64,000 nt of DNA from Deltaproteobacteria bacterium (lineage in GTDB: Bacteria > Myxococcota_A > Bradymonadia > REDH01): positions 1 through 64,000 of the forward strand of contig REDH01000081.1 in the NCBI GenBank assembly GCA_007693585.1, written 5' to 3'. A program made the translations under genes and the position numbers. Shown here piece by piece: positions 58,491 through 62,102 of this stretch. Every line of letters starts with the position of its first letter. Positions within the stretch are counted from its first letter, which is position 1. The notes beneath the pieces are model-generated. The model searched no databases, was not told the origin of the DNA, and saw only the letters and a program-made list of their open reading frames with translations.

Positions 58491-61400
58491 TCAGCCGCCG
58501 AAGCCGCTGCTGGCACAGGACGCCCCATCCTGCTCCTCCCAGGTCCCCTGGTTGCACTGGAAGGTGGCGGTGCCCGTGATCGGAGGTTCGCTGTCGCTGG
58601 CGGTTCTCGACTGGCCATGGTTGCGGGCGTTGAAGGAGGCGCTGCAGGTGAACCCGTCCACGGTCCACGAGAGCGTCTCGCGGGCACATCGGCGATCGGA
58701 GGCGCACGCTGCGTCAGTTCCGCCGTTGCTTCCGAGACACGTCCACGTGAACGGTCCACCCCCGCTCACTGCGGTCGGCGTTCCGTCGCTGCAGAGGTTG
58801 TTCGACGGCGCGTTGACCGTGTTGCCACCATCTGCCGTGCCGCACTGGCCGTCCACCACGGGTGCGCAGGTCGCGCCGGGCTGCGCAACCCAGGTCCCCT
58901 GCCGGCACTCGAGGGTCGCGGCGCCGGTGTTCGGGCGTTCACTGTCGGACACGGGGCGGGTGTGCCCGTTCTCGCCCTGCGTCACCGGGCTGCTGCAGGT
59001 ACTTCCATCCACGGTCCATGATGCAGCACCCCCCTCGCAGCTCCGGTCGGAAGAACACGATGCATCGTCGCCTCCATTGCTCCCTGCGCAGGTCCAGGCA
59101 AAGGGCCCGTTGCCGCTCACGGCGGAAGGTGCTCCCGTTGCACAGAGGTCTGCGGTGGGCGCTCCGAGCGTGCTGTTCCCCGCCGCCTCTCCGCACGTAC
59201 CGCTGACGACCGGTGCGCACGTCGCGCCGGGTTGCTGGTTCCACGCCCCCTGCTCACAGCGGTAGGTTGCCGATCCGGCGGTCTGCGGACCCTGTGCGGT
59301 GGCGGTTCGGGACTGCCCGTGGTTCCGGTTGCCGATCTCCCCGCCGCAGGTGCTTCCCTCCACGGTCCAGCTCATCGAGACACCGGCACAACTGCGGTTC
59401 GAGGAGCACTCGGCATCGGCTCCTGCTCCGCTGCCCTGGCAGGTCCACGTCCAGGGCCCGTCCCCGGTCACGGGAGTCGCCGTGCCAGCGCTGCAGAGAT
59501 TGCTCGTCGGCGGGGTGAGGGTGCTGCGTCCGCGCGCCGATCCGCACGCCCCGACCACGCCGGGCGCGCAGGTCGCTCCCGACTGCGGAACCCACGCGCC
59601 CTGATCGCAGCGCAGGGTGGCCGTGCCGGTGTTGGGCGGCCCGTTGTCCGTCGCCGTGCGGGACTGGCCATGGTTTCGAGCAGCGACCGATCCACTGCAG
59701 GTGTGGTCCCCCACTGTCCAGGAGGCCTCGCCCCCCGCGCAGCTCCGGTTGGCGGAGCATGTGATGTCGTCGCCGCCGTTGAGGCCTCCGCAGGTCCAGG
59801 TAAAGGGGCCGTCGCCACTCACGGCGGAGGCCGTTCCGGCGGTGCACAGGTCGCTGGTCGGGGCGGAGCCGAAGTGGCCGCCGCCGGCCTCGCCACACGC
59901 ACCGTCCACGACCGGCTGGCACGTGGCACCGGGCTGACGGGTCCACGCGCCCTGATCGCATCGGAATTGCGCCGACCCGGTGTTCGGAAGATCGTCGTCG
60001 GTAGCGGTACGCGACTGGCCGTGCTGGGCGGAGGTCACGGATCCGGCGCAGGCGTTGCCGCTCACCGACCAGTTGCGTGCCCCCGCGGTGCAGCTCCGGT
60101 TCGACGAACACGAGGCGCTCTCGCCCTGATTGCTCCCCTCGCAGGTCCAGGTGAACGGTCCCGAGCCCTCCACGGCCGAGGGCGTGCCTGCGCTGCACAG
60201 GTTGCCGGTCGGCGCATTGGGCGTGCTTCCTCCGTCGGCCGAGCCGCACGCGCCGTCGACGACCGGTGCGCAGGTGGCCCCGCCCTGCTGCGCCCATTCG
60301 CCCTGCTGGCAGCGGAAGGTGGCGCGCCCGGCGAGCGGTGGGCCGCTGTCGGTCGCGTTGCGCGTGCGACCATGTTCCCGCCCCGAGACCGTACCGCTGC
60401 AGGTGAGGCCATCCACAGTCCAGGAGCGGGTCTCGCGGTCGCAGCTTCGATCTGCGCTGCACTCGGCGTCCTCGCCGCCCTCCGCGCCGACGCAGGTCCA
60501 GGTGAACGGCCCCTCGCCGCTCACGCCCGATGGCGTACCCGAGGCGCACAGGTCGCTGTCCGGAACCTCGCTGGTGCTGCCCCCCGCGGCAGAGCCGCAC
60601 GCAGCATGGATGACGGCGGAGCAGGTCGCCCCGTCCTCTTCCATCCAGGTGCCCTGCTCGCACCGGAAGGTGGCTGTCCCGCGGTTGGGGGGGCCCTCGT
60701 CGGATGCGGACGCGGTCCGGCCATGGTCCCGCCCCGACAGCAGATCACCGCACGACTGATCGTCCACGGTCCACGTCGCCGTCTCCGCTTCGCAGCTCCG
60801 GCTCGACGAGCAGTTGACGTCGGGTTCGTCGCCGCTCCCGAGACACGTCCATGTGAACGGGCCTTCACCGTCGACCGCCGTGGGTGTCCCCGCGCTGCAC
60901 AGGGCCGAGTCGGGGGCGGTCGCCGTGCTGCGGCCGGAAGCCGGTCCGCAGATTCCACCCTGGCAGACCTGCACGGTCAGGGCTGCGGCCTCACTGGTTC
61001 GGGACAGGCAGGATCCCGAGGCCACAGCCCGGAAGAGGTGGCCGTCCATCTCCTGCGTCACGGCCGTTCGCCGCAGGGTGTCCGCCGAGCTGTCCTCGAA
61101 GCCGTCCTCTCCGGTCAGATCCTGCCAGGTCTCGCCCGCATCGACGCTCCGCTGCCAGACGATGGCCGGCTCGTCCCCCGAAGCCTCCACGGAGAAGGAG
61201 ACCGGCCCCCCCACGCACGCCGTCGCGTCTTCGGGGGACGCCTCAATCGTCACCTGGTCCTCCGGACACACGCAGGTGCCCTCCTCGCAGCGACGTCCAT
61301 CCGTGCAGGCGTTTCCGCACGCACCGCAGTGCCGCTCATCCGTCTGCGGATCCGCCTCGCCGATGCAGATGAGTTCCACGTCCGACGTGCAGAACCAGCG

Positions 61401-62102
61401 CCCCGTGTCGCAGTAGCCGCAGTTCTCCTCGGGGGCGCCCGGCAGGGGACCACAGCCCCCGCAGAGGTTGAACCCGGGGTCCTCGCAGGAGATCACCTCC
61501 GTTCCGTCGCAGACGAGGCGGCCACACTGGCCGCAGTGCGCGCCGACATCGCCGGCCATGGAGGTGCATCCTCCGCAGACGTTGGCCGGAACACACGCTC
61601 CGTCACAGACCAGCTCGCCGGAGGGGCAGAAGCAGGCACCGTCCGCGCAGCTCGCTCCTGTCGGGCACACCTCCCCGCAGCCTCCGCAATTCTCGGGATC
61701 CGTCCGCAGGTCCACCTCGCACCCCGTCTCCTCATCCCCGTCGCAGTTGGCGAGACCCACCGGACACTCCGAGCGGACGCACATCCCGCTCTGACACCGG
61801 TAGCCCTCGGGGCATGCCGCGCCACACGCGCCGCAGTGATCGTCGGAGAAGCGGGTGTTCGTCTCGCACCCCGTCTCCCGGTTCCCGTCGCAGTTGGCGA
61901 ACGGCGGCTCGCAGTCGAGCGCGCAGTCCTCGCCCTCGCACGGGTCATCCCCGCAACCCGATGTGCGGTCGCACACATCTCCACCCCCACCCTCCTGCGT
62001 GATCTCCGTCAGTCCGGACTCGTCCGAACAGGCCCACAGCATGGCGATGGCGACGACCGCGGGAAGGAGTACTCCTGCACGAAAAGGGGCTGCGGTCATC
62101 AT
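58491..62102 (-). CDS. Giant lipoprotein with seven 116-residue tandem repeats
   Basis: 1203-residue lipoprotein. GGAGG before two adjacent ATGs and lipobox LWAC (Cys25) fix the start. About residues 30-320 are Cys-rich, with GCETNTRFSDDHCGACGAAC and further C-x-x-C units. An Ig-like domain follows (VGGPVSFSVEASGDEPAIVWQRS, about 325-385). The rest, to the stop, is seven repeats of about 116 residues. Each runs CGxAxGxST, LCSAGTPSAV, GPFTWTC, CSSxRSC, SWTVxGxTC, HGQSRTAT and ATFRCxQGxW, ending GATCAPVVDG. Eight or so Cys per repeat are conserved. The product is probably an extended, disulfide-rich surface filament or adhesin (inference). Confidence 0.82.
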   Translation of the reverse strand: MMTAAPFRAGVLLPAVVAIAMLWACSDESGLTEITQEGGGGDVCDRTSGCGDDPCEGEDCALDCEPPFANCDGNRETGCETNTRFSDDHCGACGAACPEGYRCQSGMCVRSECPVGLANCDGDEETGCEVDLRTDPENCGGCGEVCPTGASCADGACFCPSGELVCDGACVPANVCGGCTSMAGDVGAHCGQCGRLVCDGTEVISCEDPGFNLCGGCGPLPGAPEENCGYCDTGRWFCTSDVELICIGEADPQTDERHCGACGNACTDGRRCEEGTCVCPEDQVTIEASPEDATACVGGPVSFSVEASGDEPAIVWQRSVDAGETWQDLTGEDGFEDSSADTLRRTAVTQEMDGHLFRAVASGSCLSRTSEAAALTVQVCQGGICGPASGRSTATAPDSALCSAGTPTAVDGEGPFTWTCLGSGDEPDVNCSSSRSCEAETATWTVDDQSCGDLLSGRDHGRTASASDEGPPNRGTATFRCEQGTWMEEDGATCSAVIHAACGSAAGGSTSEVPDSDLCASGTPSGVSGEGPFTWTCVGAEGGEDAECSADRSCDRETRSWTVDGLTCSGTVSGREHGRTRNATDSGPPLAGRATFRCQQGEWAQQGGATCAPVVDGACGSADGGSTPNAPTGNLCSAGTPSAVEGSGPFTWTCEGSNQGESASCSSNRSCTAGARNWSVSGNACAGSVTSAQHGQSRTATDDDLPNTGSAQFRCDQGAWTRQPGATCQPVVDGACGEAGGGHFGSAPTSDLCTAGTASAVSGDGPFTWTCGGLNGGDDITCSANRSCAGGEASWTVGDHTCSGSVAARNHGQSRTATDNGPPNTGTATLRCDQGAWVPQSGATCAPGVVGACGSARGRSTLTPPTSNLCSAGTATPVTGDGPWTWTCQGSGAGADAECSSNRSCAGVSMSWTVEGSTCGGEIGNRNHGQSRTATAQGPQTAGSATYRCEQGAWNQQPGATCAPVVSGTCGEAAGNSTLGAPTADLCATGAPSAVSGNGPFAWTCAGSNGGDDASCSSDRSCEGGAASWTVDGSTCSSPVTQGENGHTRPVSDSERPNTGAATLECRQGTWVAQPGATCAPVVDGQCGTADGGNTVNAPSNNLCSDGTPTAVSGGGPFTWTCLGSNGGTDAACASDRRCARETLSWTVDGFTCSASFNARNHGQSRTASDSEPPITGTATFQCNQGTWEEQDGASCASSGFGG
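58494..60955 (-). repeat. Array of seven ~350-bp protein-coding repeats
   Basis: Encodes the seven tandem ~116-residue modules of the giant lipoprotein. The modules share their Cys framework and motifs but differ at many positions, so they are old duplications under selection for structure rather than recent copies. The last module (ending at 58494) loses the closing GATCAPVVDG for GASCASSGFGG. Confidence 0.85.

Follow-up and report, generated by a model that had tools for sequence, protein, structure and literature searches.

Introduction

Sushi domains (also CCP or SCR; PF00084) are disulfide-containing beta modules of ~60 residues that are arranged in tandem chains, and HpARI is one of the CCP proteins (PMC5655542, PMC7234810). 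Tandem cysteine-rich surface repeats are a known kind of architecture in bacteria. We analyzed such a repeat array in a 64,000-nt stretch of DNA (contig REDH01000081.1, positions 1–64,000; hereafter the window, to which the coordinates below refer). A preliminary description of this stretch had reported seven tandem cysteine-rich modules of an unrecognised family. The seven copies are real and lie on the minus strand. Profile searches of Pfam, NCBIfam, PHROGs and PDB sequences with the repeats returned no family and thus no known domain of established function, and the literature searched held no description of it. The array is best described as a two-domain form of the tandem cysteine-rich bacterial surface repeat, in which a widespread module without a name is joined to a rare one.

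Organization of the gene and its product

The gene starts at 62102 on the minus strand and encodes a protein of 1203 residues. Its features are as follows, with the basis of each assignment in brackets.

58491..62102, minus strand: whole gene, 1203-residue predicted outer-membrane lipoprotein (open frame, codon-position identity, GC pattern)
62028..62102, minus strand: predicted signal peptide with lipobox-like LWAC (residues 22–25), candidate lipid-anchor Cys25 and Ser at +2 (translation read by eye)
61233..62030, minus strand: cysteine-rich N-terminal region, residues 25–290 (weak NF041328 and Stig1 matches, motif scan)
60972..61247, minus strand: probable Ig-like domain, residues 286–377 (sub-threshold Pfam and PDB matches)
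60612..60962, minus strand: composite repeat 1 (modules A and B), 117 residues, 8 Cys (alignment, coordinates, HMM search)
60261..60611, minus strand: composite repeat 2 (A and B) (alignment, coordinates, HMM search)
59910..60260, minus strand: composite repeat 3 (A and B), the copy modelled with AlphaFold2, pLDDT 97.3 (alignment, HMM search, model)
59559..59909, minus strand: composite repeat 4 (A and B), B half modelled alone, pLDDT 93.1 (alignment, HMM search, model)
59208..59558, minus strand: composite repeat 5 (A and B) (alignment, coordinates, HMM search)
58857..59207, minus strand: composite repeat 6 (A and B) (alignment, coordinates, HMM search)
58506..58856, minus strand: composite repeat 7 (A and B), last copy (alignment, coordinates, HMM search)
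60099..60251, minus strand: example of module A, in repeat 3 (A-profile match, E 3.9e-22)
60261..60449, minus strand: example of module B, in repeat 2 (B-profile match, E 2.4e-29)

The preliminary description had placed the array at 58494..60955 and given a module length of 116 residues. Tandem repeats do lie there, with measured limits of 58506..60962 (residues 381–1199), and the period is exactly 117 residues in all seven copies, without indels. Each copy contains eight cysteines, where about eight had been estimated, all in register across the seven; 32 of the 117 columns do not vary, and column identity averages 70%. Self-identity of the array was 56%, 55% and 55% at lags of 117, 234 and 351 residues, compared with a maximum of 17% over all lags in 500 shuffles. 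The protein ends four residues past the last repeat, so the array forms its free end. At the DNA level the copies are only 58–66% identical and a tandem-repeat finder gave no signal over the array, indicating that the duplications are old.

Identity between copies was 0.68, 0.72 and 0.46 at codon positions 1, 2 and 3, and the corresponding GC contents were 60, 71 and 83%. This pattern marks the frame as coding, with selection acting on its protein sequence, even though a 1380-residue frame overlaps it on the opposite strand. The overlapping frame is the one point in favor of regarding the gene as a chance open frame in GC-rich DNA; the likelihood of that explanation is negligible, as codon-position conservation, the exact 117-residue period and homologous modules in many genomes refute it.

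The mature protein has 101 cysteines in total. The cysteine-rich N-terminus that had been noted upstream of the array holds 42 of them, and a motif scan of this region found three NCG.CG..C..G..C..G.C units. The region matched NCBIfam NF041328 (C_rich_MXAN6577) with E 5.6e-5 and 23.1 bits, against a curated cut-off of 100; this weak match to a myxobacterial family is confined to the N-terminal region, and the protein does not qualify as MXAN_6577-like. From this match the window's phylum would probably be Myxococcota. Pfam Stig1 was also matched weakly (E 0.002). The Ig-like domain named earlier is probable at residues ~286–377, on matches that fall below threshold: Pfam Ig_3 (E 0.93, 10.5 bits; cut-off 30), which does not reach membership, and the Ig domains of RPTP-delta among PDB sequences (E 0.21–0.95). 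The signal region consists of a hydrophobic stretch followed by LWAC, in which Trp at −2 is unusual. On a reading of the translation by eye, a lipid anchor is probable, as had been proposed, with Cys25 as the candidate residue.

No catalytic domain was detected in the protein by Pfam and NCBIfam searches. The flanking genes encode an RsmC-like methyltransferase and an ABC transporter on the same strand, with a pseudouridine synthase and an amidase beyond; they carry no functional hint, and no ligand, receptor, secretion system or adhesion-related neighbor was identified, which counts against the surface-arm reading proposed below.

Each repeat is a composite of two modules

The preliminary description had treated the module as a single unit. 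The repeat is indeed regular and cysteine-rich, but each copy consists of two separable domains with independent distributions, and the 117-residue repeat is a composite of two apparently unrelated modules, A followed by B. Module A spans ~51 residues (CGxAxG..LCSAGT..GPFTWTC..C). We defined the A family by four cysteines spaced 17/18/11, CGxAxG, GP[WFY]xWxC and a terminal C; all seven window copies belong to it, and its profile matched 82 non-window loci. Module B spans ~60 residues (W..C..HG..TGxATFxCxQGxW..C), and the window copies conform to the B family as defined here (four cysteines, an invariant W, HG, TGxA and C..G.W...C). In an alignment of 21 B sequences from four genomes, the series C, W, C, G, C, G, W, C is invariant. 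Among the window copies, pairwise identity was 50–69% for the A halves and 41–63% for the B halves, and, judged from their sequences, the repeats show no sign of recent copying.

Scanning genome contigs with the whole repeat gave 78 loci, most of which matched the first half only. With separate half-profiles, 91 of 94 loci proved to contain A (14 being the window's own), whereas B, outside the window's own loci, was seen among these 94 only in locus L089 of genome G040. Descent of A and B from one another by duplication was ruled out by an hhalign probability of 0.1 and by the absence of a 56–60-residue sub-period in the lag self-identity of the array.

AlphaFold2 predicted a compact, all-beta fold for repeat 3 with high confidence (61 alignment rows; pLDDT 97.3, pTM 0.80), and the B half of repeat 4 was modelled alone from seven rows (pLDDT 93.1). 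Neither the composite nor the B-alone model had a significant fold match in the PDB. The best viral fold match was a phage protein that appears to contain a module A of its own, with 42% identity over 55 columns. A rod-like filament had been proposed from the regular repeat length and the disulfide pattern. Given that the model is a well-packed all-beta unit, a rod-like shape of the array is plausible, and nothing suggests that the window protein polymerises into a filament.

Module A is widespread on surface-type proteins

The modules recur beyond the window. Module A was found in Patescibacteria, Alphaproteobacteria, Geobacteraceae, Burkholderiales, Myxococcota and viral contigs, where it occurs alone, in tandems of ~56 residues (up to 15 copies, in L017), or alternating with other modules at ~130–136 residues. 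By profile, the window A modules belong to this unnamed family (CGSANG...LCSxGTAS.VSG.GPWTWTC.G.NGG...C; 56-residue tandems in Alphaproteobacteria, Patescibacteria, Geobacteraceae and others), with best matches at E of about 1e-17 to 1e-21. They share its four cysteines and GP.TW.C core, but each A of the window has a B behind it. A further difference is the aromatic next to GP: 15 of the 16 composite copies have F or Y at this position, and 104 of the 110 other copies have W. In another arrangement (e.g. L078, L071, L068), A alternates in tandem with a second small beta module, as in the window, but the period is ~130–136 residues and the partner is the cysteine-poor InlB B-repeat (PF18998) instead of B.

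The partners of A recognised by Pfam comprise the OmpA C-terminal domain, Big_7, He_PIG, Big_3_5, fn3, Calx-beta, PATR and InlB B-repeat (PF18998), as well as Kelch, RCC1, CBM60, polysaccharide deacetylase and Kazal; Ig-like domains also occur. Module A is thus spread over many bacterial phyla and also viral contigs, and has no match in the copies of Pfam, NCBIfam and PHROGs searched. It could warrant a domain entry of its own, and such an entry would help to annotate numerous large surface proteins now called "hypothetical".

Micavibrio and other genomes labelled Alphaproteobacteria (L011, L021, L023, L032, L037, L039, L042, L044, L050) have in common a large protein in which A occurs up to 12 times. 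Its OmpA peptidoglycan-binding C-terminus was confirmed by Pfam for L011, L021 and L023, and predatory bacteria may conserve it as a surface protein. Viral contigs gave four A matches. Three viral-labelled loci (L120, L121, L123) have one or two A modules each, on long proteins that are repetitive, lyase-like or secreted-looking; these proteins may be phage depolymerases, or the contigs may be bacterial and wrongly assigned.

Module B is rare and the A–B array is patchily distributed

In large runs the best 20-odd candidates per genome were considered, and many genomes are incomplete, so the following counts are lower bounds. Among 284 genomes sampled in the window's phylum, A occurs in at least two (the window genome and G081) and B in at least four (the window genome, G040, G081 and G145). 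In the phylum of an A-bearing Rudaea genome, A was present in at least six of 299 genomes and B in none, among the best 20-odd candidates per genome. B was likewise found in none of 29 A-bearing genomes and in none of the viral contigs searched, and no credible match came from 297 genomes belonging to the same phylum as a Geobacteraceae genome, the single hit being a 26-residue open frame with a stop. Among the genomes searched, module B thus appears only in the window's phylum. The 117-residue repeat had no match in plasmid and phage records. The array is missing from five genomes of the window's own family (G001–G005); this patchy distribution fits transfer or frequent loss.

A second A–B array was found in G081, from another class of the phylum (locus L118), within a 1574-residue frame. 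It has the same modules in the same order, the same 117-residue period and a CSSxRSC-like junction. It differs in having nine copies, the later ones nearly identical, where the window has seven, and its N-terminus consists of Hexapep and CARDB domains, in contrast to the cysteine-rich and Ig-like N-terminus of the window protein. Recurrence on a different N-terminus with a different copy number suggests that the array behaves as a transferable cassette of variable copy number. In a tree of 71 A halves (51 columns; mostly unresolved), the seven window copies group with copies 1 and 2 of G081 (SH-aLRT 94). Together with the F/Y aromatic and the common CSSxRSC-like junction, this grouping suggests that the A–B composite arose once and that the two arrays, each on its own N-terminal scaffold, later expanded separately, one to seven copies and the other to nine. 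The near-identity of the later A–B repeats at L118 (4751–9472) suggests a recent expansion there, and this locus is a candidate for repeat-number variation.

The remaining B modules have other settings. Those of G145 (L119) and G040 (L087, L089) share the four cysteines and the HG...TGxATYxC..G.W...C core with the window. In G145, four B copies stand in 54–56-residue tandem with TSP3, MopE and DUF4214, whereas in G040 B is paired at a 115-residue period with an LPWGGTI...C module and followed by a C-terminal Lcl_C. This cysteine-rich partner (LPWGGTIxHGxSVTAYxSxxVxCGxxCxSExRxC...; L089 3–1313, and L087) has no Pfam name.

Proposed role of the array

The anatomy of the protein is solid, and on that anatomy it could be an outer-membrane-anchored surface stalk or adhesive arm rigidified by disulfides, a reading to which we give about an even chance. 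Cys25 would be lipidated and the protein retained on the outer membrane; the cysteine-rich base and the Ig-like domain would carry the array outward, and the free C-terminal end would be a chain of 14 small, presumably disulfide-clamped beta domains (seven A–B pairs). Such a chain may act as a stiff arm that resists proteases and reaches out from the cell, either sticking to other cells or to surfaces or keeping such contacts at a distance. In other genomes A is found on exported proteins of surface type, next to domains typical of stalks or display (OmpA C-terminal domain, Big_7, He_PIG, fn3, Calx-beta, PATR, InlB B-repeat, Kelch, RCC1), which is consistent with an arm. The indel-free repeats under selection, the in-register cysteines, the confident all-beta model, the lipobox-like signal region, the recurrence of the array on another N-terminus and the lack of a catalytic domain in Pfam and NCBIfam searches also speak for this reading. 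A passive spacer and an active adhesin appear indistinguishable on the present sequence evidence. Taken as a surface arm, the composite would show bacteria building long disulfide-rich appendages by alternating interchangeable domains.

The main rival is a multivalent glycan- or polymer-binding array, in which A, B or both would be small lectin-like units gaining avidity by repetition; we consider this possible though doubtful. Invariant aromatics are present in every copy (W38 in module A; W64 and W106 in module B), although these tryptophans may be core residues. Module A also occurs on a polysaccharide deacetylase (L014), on a protein with a weak polysaccharide-lyase match (L024), on a CBM60 protein (L043) and on viral-contig proteins with parallel-repeat, lyase-like sequence. 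However, most partners of A are not carbohydrate enzymes, and the PDB fold search returned no lectin or CBM above noise, the Ralstonia lectin rows having E > 1 and probability < 0.1.

The cysteine content of the mature protein might also suggest a redox- or metal-active repeat protein, with reactive or metal-binding rather than structural cysteines. This is very unlikely: the repeat cysteines are single, lie in strands at conserved spacing and form neither CxxC motifs nor His–Cys clusters, and each domain has an even number of them, four in both A and B, as expected for disulfides.

Local similarity of module B to sushi domains

Module B resembles sushi domains in size, tandem arrangement and a local G..x.Y.C..G.W...C motif. 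When PDB sequences were searched with the B profile, CCP proteins came first (factor XIII-B, E 0.0011; HpARI, 0.0017; factor H, 0.8 and 1.9), and hhalign of B against five bacterial sushi domains gave a score of 24.3, whereas none of 400 column shuffles scored above 18.5. The poxvirus SCR protein B5R was among the top viral fold matches of the composite model (E 0.33–0.55, rmsd about 7), and the window's genome contains three genuine sushi domains. B, and hence the array, could on these grounds be a divergent sushi chain, a bacterial analogue of the complement-regulator rods used in protein–protein recognition. We regard this as quite improbable. The cysteine spacing of B is 14/30/13, against 26/14/13 in a sushi domain of the same genome, and lies outside the sushi pattern (C1–C4 about 26–31/13–14/13). 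Pfam Sushi matched one of 21 B members, below the cut-off (E 0.091), and the whole window protein not at all up to E 1. The B-alone model had no CCP among its top 50 PDB matches, though CCP structures are plentiful; the similarity spans only ~24 columns, and module A has none.

Because of its cysteine spacing, the fold search and the Pfam cut-off, we do not class B as a true sushi domain, even though the local similarity exceeds 400 shuffles; the link may reflect remote relation or local convergence. A bolder proposal, which we think unlikely, is that A and B each represent a small disulfide beta fold so far undescribed, that bacteria and possibly phages reshuffle these folds as units of extracellular proteins, that B is a rearranged sushi relative, and that the array is an independently evolved bacterial counterpart of the CCP rods in animal complement regulators, serving cell–cell or prey recognition. 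The local likeness of B to sushi, in a genome with true sushi domains, bears on the origin or spread of such domains in bacteria.

Sushi domains are rare in bacteria and were found in only three of 58 relatives. The three Pfam-grade domains of the window genome lie at L159 (637–2658; G000:C148), L160 (G000:C211) and L161 (G000:C11). The L159 product is a lipoprotein with an FGE-sulfatase domain by Pfam, and those of L160 and L161 look alike by eye. In two relatives (L162, L163), sushi is fused to a protein in which phospholipase-D-like HxK motifs were seen by eye.
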